Shown: piece after piece, positions 17,813-28,454 of the stretch
Numbering within the stretch: the stretch's first letter is position 1
Layout of the letters: each line of letters begins with the position of its first letter
DNA from: Candidatus Nitrosocosmicus agrestis
GTDB lineage: Archaea > Thermoproteota > Nitrososphaeria > Nitrososphaerales > Nitrososphaeraceae
Reading direction: 5' to 3'
Assembly: GCF_008389435.1 (NCBI RefSeq)
Contig: NZ_VUYS01000007.1
Coordinates: 1 to 54,390 of the forward strand
DNA length: 54,390 nt
Position numbers and translations under genes: made by a program
The notes under the pieces: model-generated
The model's database searches: none
What the model saw: the letters and a program-made list of their open reading frames with translations, nothing else
Told to the model about the DNA's origin: nothing

Positions 17813-18376
17813 ATGGCACAAATGCCAGCATTAATTCCAAAGGAAGTAGAAATTCAAAGACTGAAAAAGATCTACTTAATGGTCATCATGCTAGGATCTA
17901 TTGCTGCATCAGTAGAAGTTGATAACTTTGTTGATGGATCACTTCATCAAACAGCAATCAGAGACAGTGCATTCACACCTGCTCACTGGTGGTTATACAG
18001 CCACTTTATTGCATTACCATTAGGTTGGGGATTTGTAGCAATGTACGACAGAAGAGTACCAGTTTTAAGAGGACCAAACAATTCAATGAACACAGGTCTG
18101 AAGATAACCATTATCGGTTATTTGGCAACCATGTTCACAATTGGTATCAACGAAATGTGGCACTTCTGGTTTGTAGAAGAAATATTCTCAGTACCTAACC
18201 ACTGGATGTTCAACATGGGTGTAGTCGTAGCTTTCATGGGTGCATTAGCCTATGTAGTTAGAGTATACGCACGTTTGGTGGAGCTTGGTGCGGAAACGCC
18301 TGCCAGAAATCCATACGTAGCAGAAATGTACAAACTAGCATTAGAAGGAAAACTCTACAGCAGATCAGTTCCTTAA
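17813..18376 (+). CDS. amoC: Ammonia monooxygenase subunit C, copy 1
   Basis: A 187-residue integral membrane protein of the archaeal AmoC type, part of the copper-dependent ammonia monooxygenase that oxidises ammonia to hydroxylamine. Several membrane helices are visible (about 20-35, 58-78, 96-113, 132-152). Two metal-site patterns can be placed by spacing: D41-x3-H45-x12-H58, as in the Cu-C site of methane monooxygenase PmoC, and N113-x3-H117-x12-H130, close to the Cu-D site. The gene stands without amoA, amoB or amoX, as often seen for extra amoC copies in group I.1b archaea. The protein is identical to copy 2. Confidence 0.97.
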   Translation: MAQMPALIPKEVEIQRLKKIYLMVIMLGSIAASVEVDNFVDGSLHQTAIRDSAFTPAHWWLYSHFIALPLGWGFVAMYDRRVPVLRGPNNSMNTGLKITIIGYLATMFTIGINEMWHFWFVEEIFSVPNHWMFNMGVVVAFMGALAYVVRVYARLVELGAETPARNPYVAEMYKLALEGKLYSRSVP

Positions 18377-20664: not shown

Positions 20665-20752
20665 TATTCTCTTTAAGTTAGATATTCGAGTTTTGTCAAA
20701 TATTAATCATCCTAAATAATAAATTAGATTGTCCTTATTTGATTTTAGACTA

Positions 20753-22120
20753 ATGCCCATTTTACCTATAGACAGTGGAAGATATGGAACCAAAGAAATG
20801 AAGGCCATTTTTGAGGAAGAAAGTAAATTATTCTATGAGTTAACCTTTGAAGCATCAGTAGCTGATGCACAGGCCAAACTCAATATAATCCCTGCTGAAG
20901 CTGCAAAAGACATAAAGAATATTGTTTCATCTGGGAAAATAACTGTACAAAGAGTCAAAGAGTTAGAAAGCGCAAGTGATCACGACATTGCAGCTATAGT
21001 GGAGGCAATTAGCGAACTATGTTTAGACAGCTCCAAACCATGGATTCATTATGGTTTAACAAGTAACGATGTGGTTGACAGTAGTACATCCATGCAAATG
21101 CGAGATGTATTTAAGATTATTGAATCAAAGATAATACAATTAATAAAAGAGCTGCTAATTAAAGCGAAAGAATACCAAGATTTACCGTCAGTAGGCAGAA
21201 CACATGGACAGCATGCAAGCATAACATCATTTGGACTCAAATTTGCAATTTGGTCAAACGAGTTTCTGGATCATCTTACAAGGATAAAAGAAGGGGAAAA
21301 AAGATTTCTTCTGTGCAAGACCCTAGGAGTTGTTGGAACTGGGTCCTTAATGAGAGAGAAAGCGTTAGAAGTTCAAAAATTAGTTTCACAGGACCTTGAC
21401 TTGTACCCTACGGAGGCAGCAACACAAGTGGTATCAAGAGAAAGGTATGCAGAAATGATGTTTATCATTACTCTAATTGCTTCAACGTTGGATAAAATAG
21501 CCGTTGAGATTAGAAACCTACAGCGTAGCGAAATCGGAGAAGTCCAAGAATCATTTAAGAAAGGACAAATTGGAAGTAGCGCAGTGCCGGTTAAAAGAAA
21601 TCCCATAAAAAGCGAGAGAGTTTCCTCTTTGGCCAGGATTATTAGGTCAAATCTGAACGTTTCTTTAGAAAATATTACGCTATGGCATGAGAGAGATTTG
21701 ACAAATTCAGCCAATGAACGTTTCATAATTCCGATGGCCTCTATACTAATAGACGATATGATAGGAACAATGACAAGAATAATTTCTGGCCTCAAGGTAA
21801 ACACAGACAGGGTTATGAAAAACATAGAGCTTACAAAGGGTCAGATATTTGCAGAATTTGTACTTCAGGGTTTGATATTGAAAGGTGTACCTAGATTTGA
21901 CGCTTATAGAACTATTCAGTCAACAGCGTTTAAGGCATTAGAAAGCAATGAACATTTCTTTAAGGCATTAACGCTTGAACCAAGAATTATGGATAACATC
22001 AACGAAGAAGAGTTAAAAATGATCTTTAATCCCCAGACTCAGCTCTCAGCTTCAGAGAATATAATCGATAATATCGTATCCAAAGCCAAAACAATGAATG
22101 TTATACCTAACAAATCTTAA
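20753..22120 (+). CDS. purB: Adenylosuccinate lyase
   Basis: A 455-residue fumarase/aspartase-superfamily enzyme that cleaves SAICAR and adenylosuccinate in purine synthesis. It begins MPILPIDSGRYGT, matching the family N-terminus, so I use ATG 20753 rather than an in-frame TTG at 20729. Catalytic segments include HYGLTSNDVVDSS, VGRTHGQHASITSFGLK (catalytic His), and the signature loop GSSAVPVKRNPIKSE, with its mobile catalytic Ser. TATA-like TAAATAAT near 20713-20720 suits a leaderless transcript. Divergent from rtcB. Confidence 0.96.
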   Translation: MPILPIDSGRYGTKEMKAIFEEESKLFYELTFEASVADAQAKLNIIPAEAAKDIKNIVSSGKITVQRVKELESASDHDIAAIVEAISELCLDSSKPWIHYGLTSNDVVDSSTSMQMRDVFKIIESKIIQLIKELLIKAKEYQDLPSVGRTHGQHASITSFGLKFAIWSNEFLDHLTRIKEGEKRFLLCKTLGVVGTGSLMREKALEVQKLVSQDLDLYPTEAATQVVSRERYAEMMFIITLIASTLDKIAVEIRNLQRSEIGEVQESFKKGQIGSSAVPVKRNPIKSERVSSLARIIRSNLNVSLENITLWHERDLTNSANERFIIPMASILIDDMIGTMTRIISGLKVNTDRVMKNIELTKGQIFAEFVLQGLILKGVPRFDAYRTIQSTAFKALESNEHFFKALTLEPRIMDNINEEELKMIFNPQTQLSASENIIDNIVSKAKTMNVIPNKS

Positions 22121-22405: not shown

Positions 22406-24871
22406 ATGGAGCCCAATTTTTGGTTGGGGTGGAAAATTGACTTGAGCACCAAAGGTTCTTCTACAAAGTATAAGAAGTGGACTTTTAACCTGAGGCATTA
22501 CGATTATGCCGGTATCTTTTTTATCTCTTTATCTTTTGCTTCAATGATTTCTACTGGGATTTTTGCTATTCCACTAATATCTGATTTTGTTTTAAATGAG
22601 AAATTTGATTGGTTTGAAGATTGGAACAATTTGTTATTTAGTATTACTAGCGCACTTGGATGTATATGGGGCATTATGGCGCATTCGCAGTTCGAATTTG
22701 TCACAAAATTGATCAGAAATACTTGGAATTCTTGTAGGAAACTAGATCCGCTAATAGGAGAATATGACTACAAAACACTAAATCCTGAAACAAACCAAAT
22801 GGAAGACGGATACGTTTATCATAGCTTGGTTGATTTTTGGGATAGAGAAAATGAAGTTCCGCACTGGCTTGACAAAGGTAAATACTGGAAGTTTTTCTTA
22901 GAATTGCAGAAAATAAATAAGAATGTAAAACTCGAAGTTGTAAAAGACATCAATTTACCATTTAAGATGGGAAAAGGCAACGTGACTGCGATCCTAAAAA
23001 AGACAGACAATGGTAATCAGATGACAAATAAAAACGGGTCAAGAACTGAAGATGTGTCGATATTTCAAATAGTTATTCCACAATGGCTGGTAATGAATAC
23101 TGAGTACAAGAGATTCAACATCTTCTCCCAATCAGAGATAAATACCATTACCAGCATAGTATCTGAAGTAAACAAAAATACACCAAGAATAATTGATGAA
23201 ATTATTTTCAATCAAAAGCCAGCACTAAAGAATTCAGGAAGCATATTTACTTCACTTTATACATACTTAAACAAAAGCTTACCAATAAGAATAGTTTACG
23301 GTAGGGTAAAAGAATTCCTACCAGGTGCCAAAAAGCGACAAATACAATATACTAATGAAAATCTTTCAAGGCTACCTTTAGATTATTTAATCGAATCAAT
23401 CCTAATTAAATCAAAAACACTTGGAATTAAAGAGACATCACTTGATAAATTATACTCCATTACGGAGTTCCTAAAGAAAGAGTACGATAAACTAGGATTA
23501 GGCGAAGGATCAAGTGAATATCATAATTTACATCATTCATTAGAAGTAGCATACATGAGTTTGAACATGCTACCAAGTGAAATACACGGCTATTCAATTA
23601 CAAATAAAGACTATGAGATTATGCTAGTTGCAGCATTATTGCATGATTATGATCCAGCAATGGGGTCATCTTCGCATTATGATCTGAAATATTCAAGAGT
23701 ACCTACTGTTGCAAGCACAATGGCAGAAATTAAGAAAAGGAAAATTCATGAGGCGTATTTTCAACTAAGTCCAGATGAATTAAGGAAGTTCTTCAGAAAA
23801 TACGAATCACCATTTGTTCCTGCTAAGGAATTTGCTACTACACATCCAGAAATGTTAGACGGGAAATCAAATAAGACCGAGAGCAAAATAATTGAGGCGC
23901 TGATATGGAGAACAGACTATCCATACAATGAAAATGCGTACAACAATTTTAATCAATTATTAAAGGAAATTGACGTTGAAGAGATTTCTGTAGAAAAGAT
24001 CAACTTAATTGCTGAGATCCTGTCATTAGCTGATCTATCAGTAACTTATTTGAGTTCAGATCCATTGTTGGCTTGGAACAGGGTGGTAAAATTATATGAG
24101 GAGTTAGATTTTCCCATAGTTGAGGCAGTATCAAGAACTGATCGATTCTTGTCATTGTTCTCAGAGGGATCATTGTTTAAAGATATTATTACAAGAAAGA
24201 ATTTCCCTGAAGCTTTTAGACAAAAATGGAACAACGTTTACCAATTCTTTCACGAAGGAAATCCGTCAAATAAGATAAACAATTTGATTCTTAATGCAAA
24301 AACAAAATATGACAAGGTAAACATGGATGCCATGACAATTAATTGTGATTTTTTGATAACTAATGCACTAAAAAATAAGAATGAATATTATATAGCGATA
24401 GTAAGAAACAAAGATGAAATAATAAACACCCAGTCAAAATTAGCGGGCCACCAGATTGACAATTTAGAAATTCTGCCAGGTAACAGTGAAAACATACTAC
24501 CGTTCATTAAAGATAAGGCCGTGGATAATTTCATCATTACTTTATTTTGTGACAAATCCAAAAAAATGATTAACAGAGAAAATATATTAAGAAACTTACT
24601 AACCGCGTATAGCTCAAAATTGAGTCAAGAAGGAACAATTCAGATTGTGATAGAAAATGATGTAGAGCTTAAAAGGATAATTCCTTTAATTTCGGAACAC
24701 GATTACAAAATTACTGAATCAAACGAGATGATTTTGACTAAAGTAAATAATCCAGAGATATTATTTGATAGTAGACCTGTTAAAATCATTACAATTCAAA
24801 ACCTGTATAAGAATACCAACAACAGGAATTTTAATAGTAATAATTTTGGCAGTTTTGATAATAATGCTTAA
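22406..24871 (+). CDS. Membrane protein with PDE-like HD domain and degenerate TrmB-like domain
   Basis: 821 residues. Two hydrophobic helices (about 34-58 and 74-92) anchor the N-terminus. After a mixed region (about 120-310), an HD-type metal domain follows with the layout of cyclic-nucleotide phosphodiesterases: YHNLHH (H373, H376, H377), LLHDYDP (H413-D414), LIWRTDYP (about 490-497, like the PDE A-T-D block) and LSLADLSVTYLSSDPLLAW (D543, like PDE A-C-D-L-S). Residues about 645-775 resemble the tRNA m7G46 methyltransferase TrmB (DNLEILPGNSENILPF, then VDNFIITLFCDKSKK), but the glycine-rich SAM motif and the F-P-D-P-W motif are lost. It precedes smc by 52 bp. Function not known. Confidence 0.8.
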   Translation: MEPNFWLGWKIDLSTKGSSTKYKKWTFNLRHYDYAGIFFISLSFASMISTGIFAIPLISDFVLNEKFDWFEDWNNLLFSITSALGCIWGIMAHSQFEFVTKLIRNTWNSCRKLDPLIGEYDYKTLNPETNQMEDGYVYHSLVDFWDRENEVPHWLDKGKYWKFFLELQKINKNVKLEVVKDINLPFKMGKGNVTAILKKTDNGNQMTNKNGSRTEDVSIFQIVIPQWLVMNTEYKRFNIFSQSEINTITSIVSEVNKNTPRIIDEIIFNQKPALKNSGSIFTSLYTYLNKSLPIRIVYGRVKEFLPGAKKRQIQYTNENLSRLPLDYLIESILIKSKTLGIKETSLDKLYSITEFLKKEYDKLGLGEGSSEYHNLHHSLEVAYMSLNMLPSEIHGYSITNKDYEIMLVAALLHDYDPAMGSSSHYDLKYSRVPTVASTMAEIKKRKIHEAYFQLSPDELRKFFRKYESPFVPAKEFATTHPEMLDGKSNKTESKIIEALIWRTDYPYNENAYNNFNQLLKEIDVEEISVEKINLIAEILSLADLSVTYLSSDPLLAWNRVVKLYEELDFPIVEAVSRTDRFLSLFSEGSLFKDIITRKNFPEAFRQKWNNVYQFFHEGNPSNKINNLILNAKTKYDKVNMDAMTINCDFLITNALKNKNEYYIAIVRNKDEIINTQSKLAGHQIDNLEILPGNSENILPFIKDKAVDNFIITLFCDKSKKMINRENILRNLLTAYSSKLSQEGTIQIVIENDVELKRIIPLISEHDYKITESNEMILTKVNNPEILFDSRPVKIITIQNLYKNTNNRNFNSNNFGSFDNNA

Positions 24872-24923
24872 TTAAAAGAAAAAGAAATAATAACTAAAGA
24901 GACTATTTAAGTACAATACAATT

Positions 24924-27900
24924 TTGGTTTATATTAAAAAATTAGATGTTTTTGGATTTAAATCATTTGGTTCAAAGAATATTTCATTAAATTTTCAAAG
25001 AGGTTTAATTGCAGTCACTGGTCCAAATGGATCAGGCAAAAGCAATATCCTTGATGCCATAATATTTGCATTAGGAGAGAACAGCCCTAAAGCACTTCGT
25101 GTAGATAAATTTCAATCACTGTTTCATGACAGTGAATCGAGCAATAACTCTAATAAAACAGTAAAAGTCAGTGTAACCTTTGATAATGAAGATCGTGGTA
25201 TTCCGATAGACGACAATTTGGTTACTATAACAAGGGAAATGTCCGGAGGAAATACAGGAGAAAGCCAATATTACCTAAATAGAAAAAAAGTTTCAAGAAG
25301 TAATATTTTGGAGTTAATGGAAATAGTGGTTGCTTCTCCAAACAAGCTAAATATTGTCCAGCAGGGTATGATCACAAGGATATCTGAGCTTAATTCGGAA
25401 GACAGGAGAAAAATTATTGAAGATATTATAGGACTGTCATATTTTGATGAAAAAAAAGACCAAGCCTATAAACAACTCGAAGAATCGGATAGAAGATTAG
25501 AAATAGCCTTAGCAAAGATGGGTGAGGTAAGAAATAGAATAGATGAACTGGAAGAGGAAAGAAACTACCAACTCAGATACTCACAAATAGAATCAGAAAT
25601 TAATAGGCTAAAAGCTATCAGACTGTCCGAAAACATCAATAGAAAAGCCAAGAAAATTGCTGAGCTCAAAGAGGAACAAAGAATCAAAGATGAAAAAAAT
25701 GCAGAGGTATCAAGGAAATTGGTAGAAATAAATAGCCAAATAGAAGAAATCAACAGGGAAAAAGAACAGTTTCTGATTCAAGCAAATGCCTCGACCAAAG
25801 TGAAAGGAGAACATGAAAAAAGAATCTCTGTTACAAACTTTGAGTATCAGAGAAATAGATCTATAATAAAAGAGACAGAGTTTCATTATAACCAATTAGT
25901 ACAAAAAGAACGAACAGACCGCTCTGAAGTAGAAATCCTACAAAATAAAATAAACGAACTTGATGAACAGATAATTAATTCAAAATCAGAAATTGATACT
26001 CTAGAAGATATTCTGAATGAATTACGCATGAAACTTGATGTAAAGAATTCACAAATTAACGAAATAAAAATATCGAATTCAGATGAAATCAATATCAAGA
26101 ATTTCTTATCTAAAAGGATCGGTAAATTGATACCCATTAAGAGCAAAGTTGAGATAAATACTGTCAGAGCAGAAGAGAATATAAAGAATTATTCTTCCAA
26201 AATAAGAGAAAACGATATTCAATTACTTAGTCTACTTACAAAAAATAGTCAAATCGAAGAAATAGTAAATGTTTCACGTTTAAAGATTAATGACATGAAT
26301 ATCGAATTAAACAATCTAAATATCGAAAAAGAAAACTTAGAGAAGAGACATCTAAAGCTATCAAGAGAGACAAATGCTTCAAAGAATGTCTTGGAAAATG
26401 CAGAAAAAGTGATAATAAAATATGATGAGAAAATTAAAATTGCTAAGGATAGCTTGGTAGAAGATTACGCAATTGCAACCTTATCCAAGGATTTTAAAGA
26501 ACTTGGAGTTATAGGATATGTTTTTAATTTGCTGTCATGGAATGAAAAATATCAAAAGGCCATTATTGCATCCGGAAATGAATGGATGAAAGCGATTGTG
26601 GTAAAAGATATTAAAAGCATGATCATTCTCGCTGAATTTGCAAAAAACCGAGATATACATTTTCTTAAAATCATTCCACAAGAACTGCTAGTTGGTGATA
26701 AAATAAATATGATTGAAGACAACCCATCAATCCTTGGAATTCTTTCAGATTTTGTAAGTAGCAAAATACCGAATTTGGCTGAATTTTTATTTGGAAACAT
26801 AGTATTAGCAAAGAATCCATTGACAGCATATTTGCTATCTAATAAAGGACTAAAAGCTGTATCTGTTACCGGTGAAATATTTTTTCCGGATTTGTCATTG
26901 ATGCAGTTTGACTATGGATCAAAGATTGCGGATATCACTAAAGATTTGTTACTGTCAGATTCCATTGAAAATTTAAAGAGTAATATTCATAAGTTAAAGT
27001 TACTTATCAGAGAACGAAATCAAGAAGTAAATAATCTTGGCAGTACAAAGTCAACCAAAGAAAAGGAGCTAGAAAGATATAATTTGGAGAAGTCTAATAT
27101 CATGAGAAAAATAGAGGAAGCAGAAGGTACATTATCTTTAAATCGCAAAAATATGATCCAACTATTTGGGATAAATAATAGTCACAGTAATCATATTGAA
27201 AAAACATTTTCTGAATTCAAACATTTTGAAAGAAGATTAAAGATCATTACAAATAGCATTGACAAAATCGATTTAGAAAGAAAGAGAATAGAGGAAAGAA
27301 TTGATCAGAAAGGATTAGAGAGAATAGAGGAAGAAAAAAACAAAATTGCTATTGAGATTGATCATAACAACAACAAGCTAAATCAACTCAAATTAATGCA
27401 TTCTATGGCGAAAAATAATTTAGAAAACACCACACGTTTACAAAAAAAAATGATCGGTGAGATAGAGAATATCCAACTGGAAAAAACTGAAAAAAAAAGA
27501 GTTCTCGAGACGGCTGTAAGTGAAGGACAAAAGATCGAAGAAGAGATGAAAATCTTAAGACAAAAAGAAGACGAAATGATTCAGTCAACCAGTTTGATTT
27601 ATACAAAAATACAAGAATATGAAAAATTGGCTAGAGGGCTTGCCGAACAAGAAAAAAGAATCAACAAAGAATCTAATCAGCTAGACAAAGATTTGGGATT
27701 TCTACGAAAAGACATTGTTGACTTGGAGAATCAATCCTCAGATCTAAATAATGAGCTTTTAAGATTGGGCCACAAATCTTTGTTAGAAAGTTTCAATGTA
27801 GATGAACTTTATCACGGATTAAAGGAAGAATATGAAAAAATCAAAGAAAATGTAAACTTTAGAGCTGATGAAACATATCAGGAAATCATAGATGGATATA

Positions 27901-28454
27901 GAGGTCTGTCAGATAAAAGAAATCAACTTGAAGAAGAAAGAAACTCGATAGTTAAATTCATCGAAGAGATTGCAAAGGAAAAAGAAAATCAGTTTACAGA
28001 GGCATTTAGAAAAGTGGATGACGATATAAGAAAAACATTTTCTGATATTACCGGAGGTAATGCATGGTTGGAATTAGAAGACCCAGAGAATATTTTTTCA
28101 GGTGGAATTTTGTTGATGGTACAATTTCCTAACAAACCTGCAAGAGAATCCACTTCATTATCCGGAGGCGAAAAAACCATGGCAGCGATAGTGTTTTTGT
28201 TGGCTTTGCAATCACTCAAACCATCTCCATTCTATTTAATGGACGAAGTGGATGCTCACCTTGATGCCCAAAATACAGACAGATTATCAAAAATACTTTT
28301 ACTTAGATCTGTGAACAATCAAATAATAATGGTCACTCTCAAGGATTCTACAGTTGCAAAATCGGATCTCATTTTTGGGGTCTACCCAAGAAATGGAATA
28401 TCTCAAGTGGTAAAGTATAATCATCCAAGTAAGGTAAAGCTAGAGGCTCAGTAA
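24924..28454 (+). CDS. smc: Chromosome segregation protein SMC
   Basis: 1176 residues, the usual SMC length. The ABC-type head is split: Walker A GPNGSGKSNILDAI (33-46) and Q-loop NIVQQG at the N-terminus; signature STSLSGGEKTMAA and Walker B FYLMDEVDAHLDA near the C-terminus. Between them lie two long coiled coils around a hinge (about 510-670). It forms a dimer that organises and separates chromosomes. The only start giving the conserved MVYIKKLDVFGFKSFG N-terminus is TTG 24924. No scpA or scpB gene follows. It may be cotranscribed with the preceding HD/TrmB-like gene. Confidence 0.97.
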   Translation: MVYIKKLDVFGFKSFGSKNISLNFQRGLIAVTGPNGSGKSNILDAIIFALGENSPKALRVDKFQSLFHDSESSNNSNKTVKVSVTFDNEDRGIPIDDNLVTITREMSGGNTGESQYYLNRKKVSRSNILELMEIVVASPNKLNIVQQGMITRISELNSEDRRKIIEDIIGLSYFDEKKDQAYKQLEESDRRLEIALAKMGEVRNRIDELEEERNYQLRYSQIESEINRLKAIRLSENINRKAKKIAELKEEQRIKDEKNAEVSRKLVEINSQIEEINREKEQFLIQANASTKVKGEHEKRISVTNFEYQRNRSIIKETEFHYNQLVQKERTDRSEVEILQNKINELDEQIINSKSEIDTLEDILNELRMKLDVKNSQINEIKISNSDEINIKNFLSKRIGKLIPIKSKVEINTVRAEENIKNYSSKIRENDIQLLSLLTKNSQIEEIVNVSRLKINDMNIELNNLNIEKENLEKRHLKLSRETNASKNVLENAEKVIIKYDEKIKIAKDSLVEDYAIATLSKDFKELGVIGYVFNLLSWNEKYQKAIIASGNEWMKAIVVKDIKSMIILAEFAKNRDIHFLKIIPQELLVGDKINMIEDNPSILGILSDFVSSKIPNLAEFLFGNIVLAKNPLTAYLLSNKGLKAVSVTGEIFFPDLSLMQFDYGSKIADITKDLLLSDSIENLKSNIHKLKLLIRERNQEVNNLGSTKSTKEKELERYNLEKSNIMRKIEEAEGTLSLNRKNMIQLFGINNSHSNHIEKTFSEFKHFERRLKIITNSIDKIDLERKRIEERIDQKGLERIEEEKNKIAIEIDHNNNKLNQLKLMHSMAKNNLENTTRLQKKMIGEIENIQLEKTEKKRVLETAVSEGQKIEEEMKILRQKEDEMIQSTSLIYTKIQEYEKLARGLAEQEKRINKESNQLDKDLGFLRKDIVDLENQSSDLNNELLRLGHKSLLESFNVDELYHGLKEEYEKIKENVNFRADETYQEIIDGYRGLSDKRNQLEEERNSIVKFIEEIAKEKENQFTEAFRKVDDDIRKTFSDITGGNAWLELEDPENIFSGGILLMVQFPNKPARESTSLSGGEKTMAAIVFLLALQSLKPSPFYLMDEVDAHLDAQNTDRLSKILLLRSVNNQIIMVTLKDSTVAKSDLIFGVYPRNGISQVVKYNHPSKVKLEAQ

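Follow-up and report, generated by a model that had tools for sequence, protein, structure and literature searches.

A putative membrane-anchored, PDE-like HD protein with a degenerate TrmB-like domain in Candidatus Nitrosocosmicus agrestis and other Nitrososphaeraceae

The window, a 54,390 nt stretch of the Candidatus Nitrosocosmicus agrestis genome (contig NZ_VUYS01000007.1, positions 1 to 54,390), carries an ORF on the forward strand (22406..24871) that specifies a protein of 821 aa, with a start that is uncertain by about 5–20 codons, as relatives begin nearer residue 5–20. Also named from sequence in the same window are amoC (17813–18376), purB (20729–22120) and, downstream of the ORF, smc (24924–28454). 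The gap between the ORF and smc is 52 bp (24872..24923, + strand) and contains a weak TATA-like stretch, from which smc may have its own promoter. On recheck, the ORF, its coordinates, the distance to smc and every residue named in a preliminary description of this DNA were found to be correct. The encoded protein consists of a membrane hairpin, a linker, an HD domain and a TrmB-like domain, and we regard this anatomy as practically certain.

The N-terminus is a predicted two-helix membrane hairpin (residues 29–113; 22490..22744, + strand), recognized from AlphaFold helices at 29–62 and 69–113, and from hydropathy and charge in 25 orthologues, with hydrophobic stretches near residues 37–55 and 76–94. 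Two membrane helices had been proposed here previously, and both hydropathy and the model agree with this. In most of the 25 orthologues, the hairpin has an acidic loop and basic flanks. The basic flanks of membrane helices lie on the cytoplasmic side (positive-inside rule), and because the loop is acidic and the flanks basic, both ends of the protein, and hence the rest of it, are probably cytoplasmic. A conserved linker domain follows (residues 114–317; 22745..23356, + strand) which, by alignment and AlphaFold, has five strands and then long helices. A Pfam search with residues 1–325 returned zero matches.

Residues 318–636 (23357..24313, + strand) make up a PDE-like HD domain, identified by Pfam, by profile comparison with the PDB and by Foldseek. 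PDEase_I (PF00233) matched residues 372–416 of the full-length protein with an E of 4.9e-5 (23.6 bits vs a cut-off of 24.8), and matched the HD fragment with an E of 7.7e-6 (26.2 bits vs 24.8), with only 45 of 238 profile positions covered, while Pfam HD (PF01966) scored 14.3 bits, under its 22-bit cut-off. When the family profile was compared to the PDB, PDE1B (E 1.7e-4) and PDE9A (E 2.5e-4) were retrieved, with matches ranging to 1e-3. A separate AlphaFold model of residues 112–637 (pLDDT 72, pTM 0.62) was submitted to Foldseek, and the best 50 matches were all class I PDEs, headed by PDE9A (6lzz; E 6.7e-4, probability 1.0), with TM-scores to PDEs that were moderate (mostly about 0.4–0.55 of target). 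The H...HD...D arrangement of the HD superfamily is present within a helical core, as seen in the AlphaFold model and the orthologue alignment. Residues 478–637 alone gave no PDE match among solved structures; by sequence, the HD domain resembles PDEs only in its first half.

The active-site motifs are strongly conserved. In YHNLHHS (372–378; 23519..23539, + strand), which aligns with PDE1B and PDE9A, we take H373 to be the general-acid His of PDEs and H377 the first metal ligand. Predicted metal ligands H413 and D414 lie in HDYDP (413–417; 23642..23656, + strand), and beyond the conserved block LIWRTDYP (499–506; 23900..23923, + strand) is LADLSVTYL (541–549; 24026..24052, + strand), in which D543 would be the fourth metal ligand, as judged by motif, position and order. 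H373, H376, H377, H413, D414, D504 and D543 are unchanged in 25/25 full-length orthologues, all of which have the predicted two-metal ligand set (H, H-D, D) and the general-acid His in YHNxxH. The class I PDE signature is HDxxH, and the PDB matches read HDYEH and HDLDH; here it is replaced by HDYDP, with P417, at the position of the signature His, invariant in the 25 orthologues. Since the signature is absent, the protein is termed PDE-like and is not classed among the class I PDEs. No residue could be assigned as the Gln by which class I PDEs select the purine, the C-terminal half of the HD domain having no PDE sequence alignment; residues 588–590, near the invariant F591, vary among orthologues. 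Among close relatives the dN/dS of the HD part is 0.05–0.20. The preliminary description had listed the HD-type residues with the blocks around them and had read them as a phosphodiesterase-like hydrolase; all are present, and this reading, as a predicted activity, is upheld by the PDEase_I, PDB profile and Foldseek matches and by the predicted helical core.

The C-terminus (residues 637–800; 24314..24805, + strand) is a complete Rossmann, TrmB-like domain that has lost its catalytic motifs, as judged by Pfam, TIGR00091, AlphaFold, Foldseek and hhalign. As a fragment it matched Methyltransf_4 (PF02390) at residues 647–776 (E 3.1e-5) and TIGR00091 (TrmB) with an E of 2.1e-5, the latter at 20–24 bits and so far below the 112.65-bit equivalog cut-off. 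TrmB 1yzh was retrieved by the domain profile from the PDB (E 1.5e-6) and stood first among the methyltransferases returned by Foldseek (E 2.2e-6). The full-length AlphaFold model (pLDDT 78, pTM 0.73) has all strands of the class I methyltransferase fold at residues 637–799, including strand 1 (637–644), and MDAMTINCDFL (640–650; 24323..24355, + strand) aligns as strand 1 and a remnant of the SAM loop, where intact relatives have VELGxGDGRxL. It had been stated that this part follows TrmB from the second strand onward and lacks the SAM loop and F-P-D-P-W; the likeness and the losses hold, but strand 1 is not missing. The GxGxG SAM loop, the acidic residue (Glu) of strand 2 and LPDP/FPDPW are lost in 21/21 aligned orthologues, and the strand 2 region of the 821 aa protein reads YYIAIVRNK. 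Some orthologues, L024 among them, retain LEIGMRRGEML, compared with VELGMGDGRLL in intact relatives. Since these motifs have been lost everywhere, yet the dN/dS of the domain is 0.08–0.34 in close relatives, the sequence evidence points to a pseudo-methyltransferase maintained by selection. Decay was rejected on the dN/dS values, and TrmB activity on the absence of the catalytic motifs. The earlier proposal that a degenerate TrmB-like domain persists here in a non-catalytic role is borne out by the fold matches, the motif losses and the dN/dS.

Orthologues, whole or partial, were found in 37/37 genomes of the same family in a first search; a wider search listed 45 such genomes, of which 44 have one. 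When 84,980 species, each represented by one genome, were scanned with patterns drawn from the HD part, 53 loci were obtained, all in records labelled as Nitrososphaerota; such patterns might overlook a very divergent fusion elsewhere. A few of these 53 loci are labelled Nitrosopumilus or Nitrosopumilales, some of them apparently loci of the same family. Within the searches made, the fusion is near-universal in Nitrososphaeraceae and was detected in no other family. In one MAG (L011, G012:C3), the C-terminal domain is out of frame with stops, reflecting either an assembly error or loss. A literature search turned up no paper describing a protein with this domain order, in agreement with the preliminary description.

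The same genome specifies a soluble paralogue of about 450–520 aa, HD-GNAT (G000:C17:16585-18099; L050:3086-4600), and other HD-GNAT loci (L051, L160–L175) occur in families f1, f2, f3 and f9. It also carries about 11 class III cyclase domains (PF00211; best E 3.9e-19), at loci L149–L159 on contigs C4, C6, C10, C11, C28, C33 and C42. Both metal-binding Asp are retained in all of them, and the Asn-Arg pair in two (C28:29087 and C42:105846), with Lys replacing Arg in most others; these residues presumably have the roles usual in class III cyclases. Searches of this genome for a diadenylate cyclase (DAC) domain, a CYTH-type cyclase and a cNMP-binding domain (PF00027, CRP-type receptor) found none, and because no PF00027 protein was found, the scheme lacks a cNMP receptor. 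The substrate c-di-AMP was rejected, as there is no DAC domain in the genome and the fold matches are cNMP PDEs. Across 61 genomes, 42 have both a PDE-like HD gene (fusion or paralogue) and PF00211, one has the HD gene alone (a genome only 59% complete), four a cyclase alone and 14 neither. Counted by family (17), the corresponding numbers are 4, 0, 2 and 11 (Fisher p 0.006, ignoring kinship), the two with cyclases alone being f8 and f10. As phylogeny is uncontrolled, this co-occurrence is only suggestive of a link between the two. Class III adenylate cyclases (COG2114) have been reported in ammonia-oxidizing archaea (AOA), where the phosphodiesterase named is CpdA (PMC9289680).

From these computational results we infer the substrate, topology and regulatory role as follows. 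We lean, with some reserve, towards a membrane-anchored cAMP/cGMP phosphodiesterase resembling class I PDEs and regulated by a pseudo-methyltransferase, a reading drawn from sequence and models. The hairpin would anchor the enzyme, with its catalytic part in the cytoplasm, and the helical linker would connect it to an HD core having a two-metal site (H377, H413, D414 and D543) and H373 as general acid. Hydrolysis of 3',5'-cAMP and/or cGMP, supplied by the many class III cyclases of the cell, is the likeliest function on the sequence and model evidence, favored to a similarly modest degree, another nucleotide being the main rival. The C-terminal domain, presumably a descendant of a TrmB-like methyltransferase that lost its SAM chemistry, may now bind a ligand or a protein and in this way regulate or position the phosphodiesterase. 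More speculatively, these components could form a lineage-specific archaeal second-messenger module, in which class III cyclases are paired with a membrane PDE-like HD enzyme under the control of a pseudo-methyltransferase acting as a sensor of SAM/SAH, tRNA or a protein partner, together with an unrecognized cNMP receptor.

It is conceivable, though we consider it doubtful, that the HD core is a metal-dependent hydrolase acting not on 3',5'-cNMP but on, for instance, (p)ppGpp, dNTPs or modified nucleotides. Such an enzyme would fit the replacement of the HDxxH of PDEs by HDxDP, which is shared with a soluble paralogue that also has a GNAT-like domain, as well as the unlocated Gln and the two families with cyclases but no such HD protein. 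However, the best 50 fold matches are all cNMP phosphodiesterases, the general-acid motif YHNxxH is retained, and class III cyclase domains are numerous in the genome, where a diadenylate cyclase was not found. A catalytically dead receptor, with an HD core that binds nucleotide or metal and signals via the C-terminal domain, is unlikely: the C-terminal domain has itself become a pseudoenzyme and the paralogue in the same genome has Glu at the equivalent of D543, but the H/HD/D residues of the fusion are all invariant (25/25) and its HD part has a low dN/dS.

The position of the gene had also raised the question of a link to the cell cycle, and a factor acting with SMC in the cell cycle or on the chromosome would fit the 14/14 loci of its own genus (g1) that read into the next gene, the present one included, where smc is close and co-directional (spacing about 40–100 bp), and likewise the two loci of g7 (100–155 bp). 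Among the genera examined, however, smc adjoins the gene only in g1 and g7 and is more loosely linked to it in g4, while most others have a nitroreductase/BluB-like gene upstream and/or an inositol-1-phosphate synthase gene alongside. Because smc is not a neighbor in most other genera, the cell-cycle idea is without general support; the putative smc promoter in the gap also argues weakly against it, we judge it very improbable, and smc linkage was dropped as a clue to function. In the genome survey that had been proposed, the domain order recurred across Nitrososphaeraceae and the smc linkage was limited to a few genera. At loci of several other genera (L052–L065), a putative N6/N4 DNA methylase sometimes accompanies the upstream nitroreductase/BluB-like gene.

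The predicted cAMP/cGMP phosphodiesterase is of interest because this PDE-like protein occurs near-universally in one soil AOA family and, within the searches made, in no other, and because several further AOA families have a soluble relative; it offers a concrete, testable component for archaeal cNMP signaling. A methyltransferase fold that appears to have been selected for after losing its SAM chemistry, within a signaling hydrolase, would be an unusual regulatory arrangement.

The HD-GNAT protein shares the GLGxxYYGYHN and HD[YF]DP core with the fusion (38–40% identity there) and has a block related to LIWRTDYP, but no N-terminal membrane-hairpin domain could be aligned and its C-terminus is GNAT-like (weak, E 0.065). 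The fourth ligand is always Asp in the fusion, whereas in HD-GNAT it is Asp in f9 and Glu in f1, f2 and the paralogue of the same genome. As HDxDP is common to both, the fusion and the HD-GNAT paralogue appear from their sequences to represent a branch of PDE-like HD proteins in AOA. A stand-alone TrmB-like methyltransferase gene (G000:C17:7038-7622, L066) is present in this and most other genomes of the family, and its profile aligns with that of the fused domain over 164 columns (hhalign; probability 99.2, E 2.8e-19), but it is a separate gene with ELGxGDGR, GIE and LPxP intact. In the genus of the present genome, the HD-GNAT gene lies 2–12 kb from this stand-alone gene. TrmB itself, the tRNA (guanine46-N7)-methyltransferase (PF02390, TIGR00091), shares the full Rossmann topology and a domain-wide alignment with the C-terminus, from which the SAM loop, the acidic residue of strand 2 and FPDPW are gone. 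Class I PDEs (PF00233; PDE9A and PDE1B) resemble the HD part in the YHNxxH and HD motifs, the H-HD-D ligand order and the helical fold, but differ in having HDxxH, in a purine Gln that was not located here and in a second half that is unrecognizable here by sequence; the present protein is archaeal and has new partner domains. Among eukaryotic PDEs, rhodopsin-PDE (PMC12004702) and CAPE, a fusion of cyclase and PDE (PMC5159850), are likewise reported to join a class I PDE to a membrane part or another signaling domain, but they have other partners and no methyltransferase-like domain.
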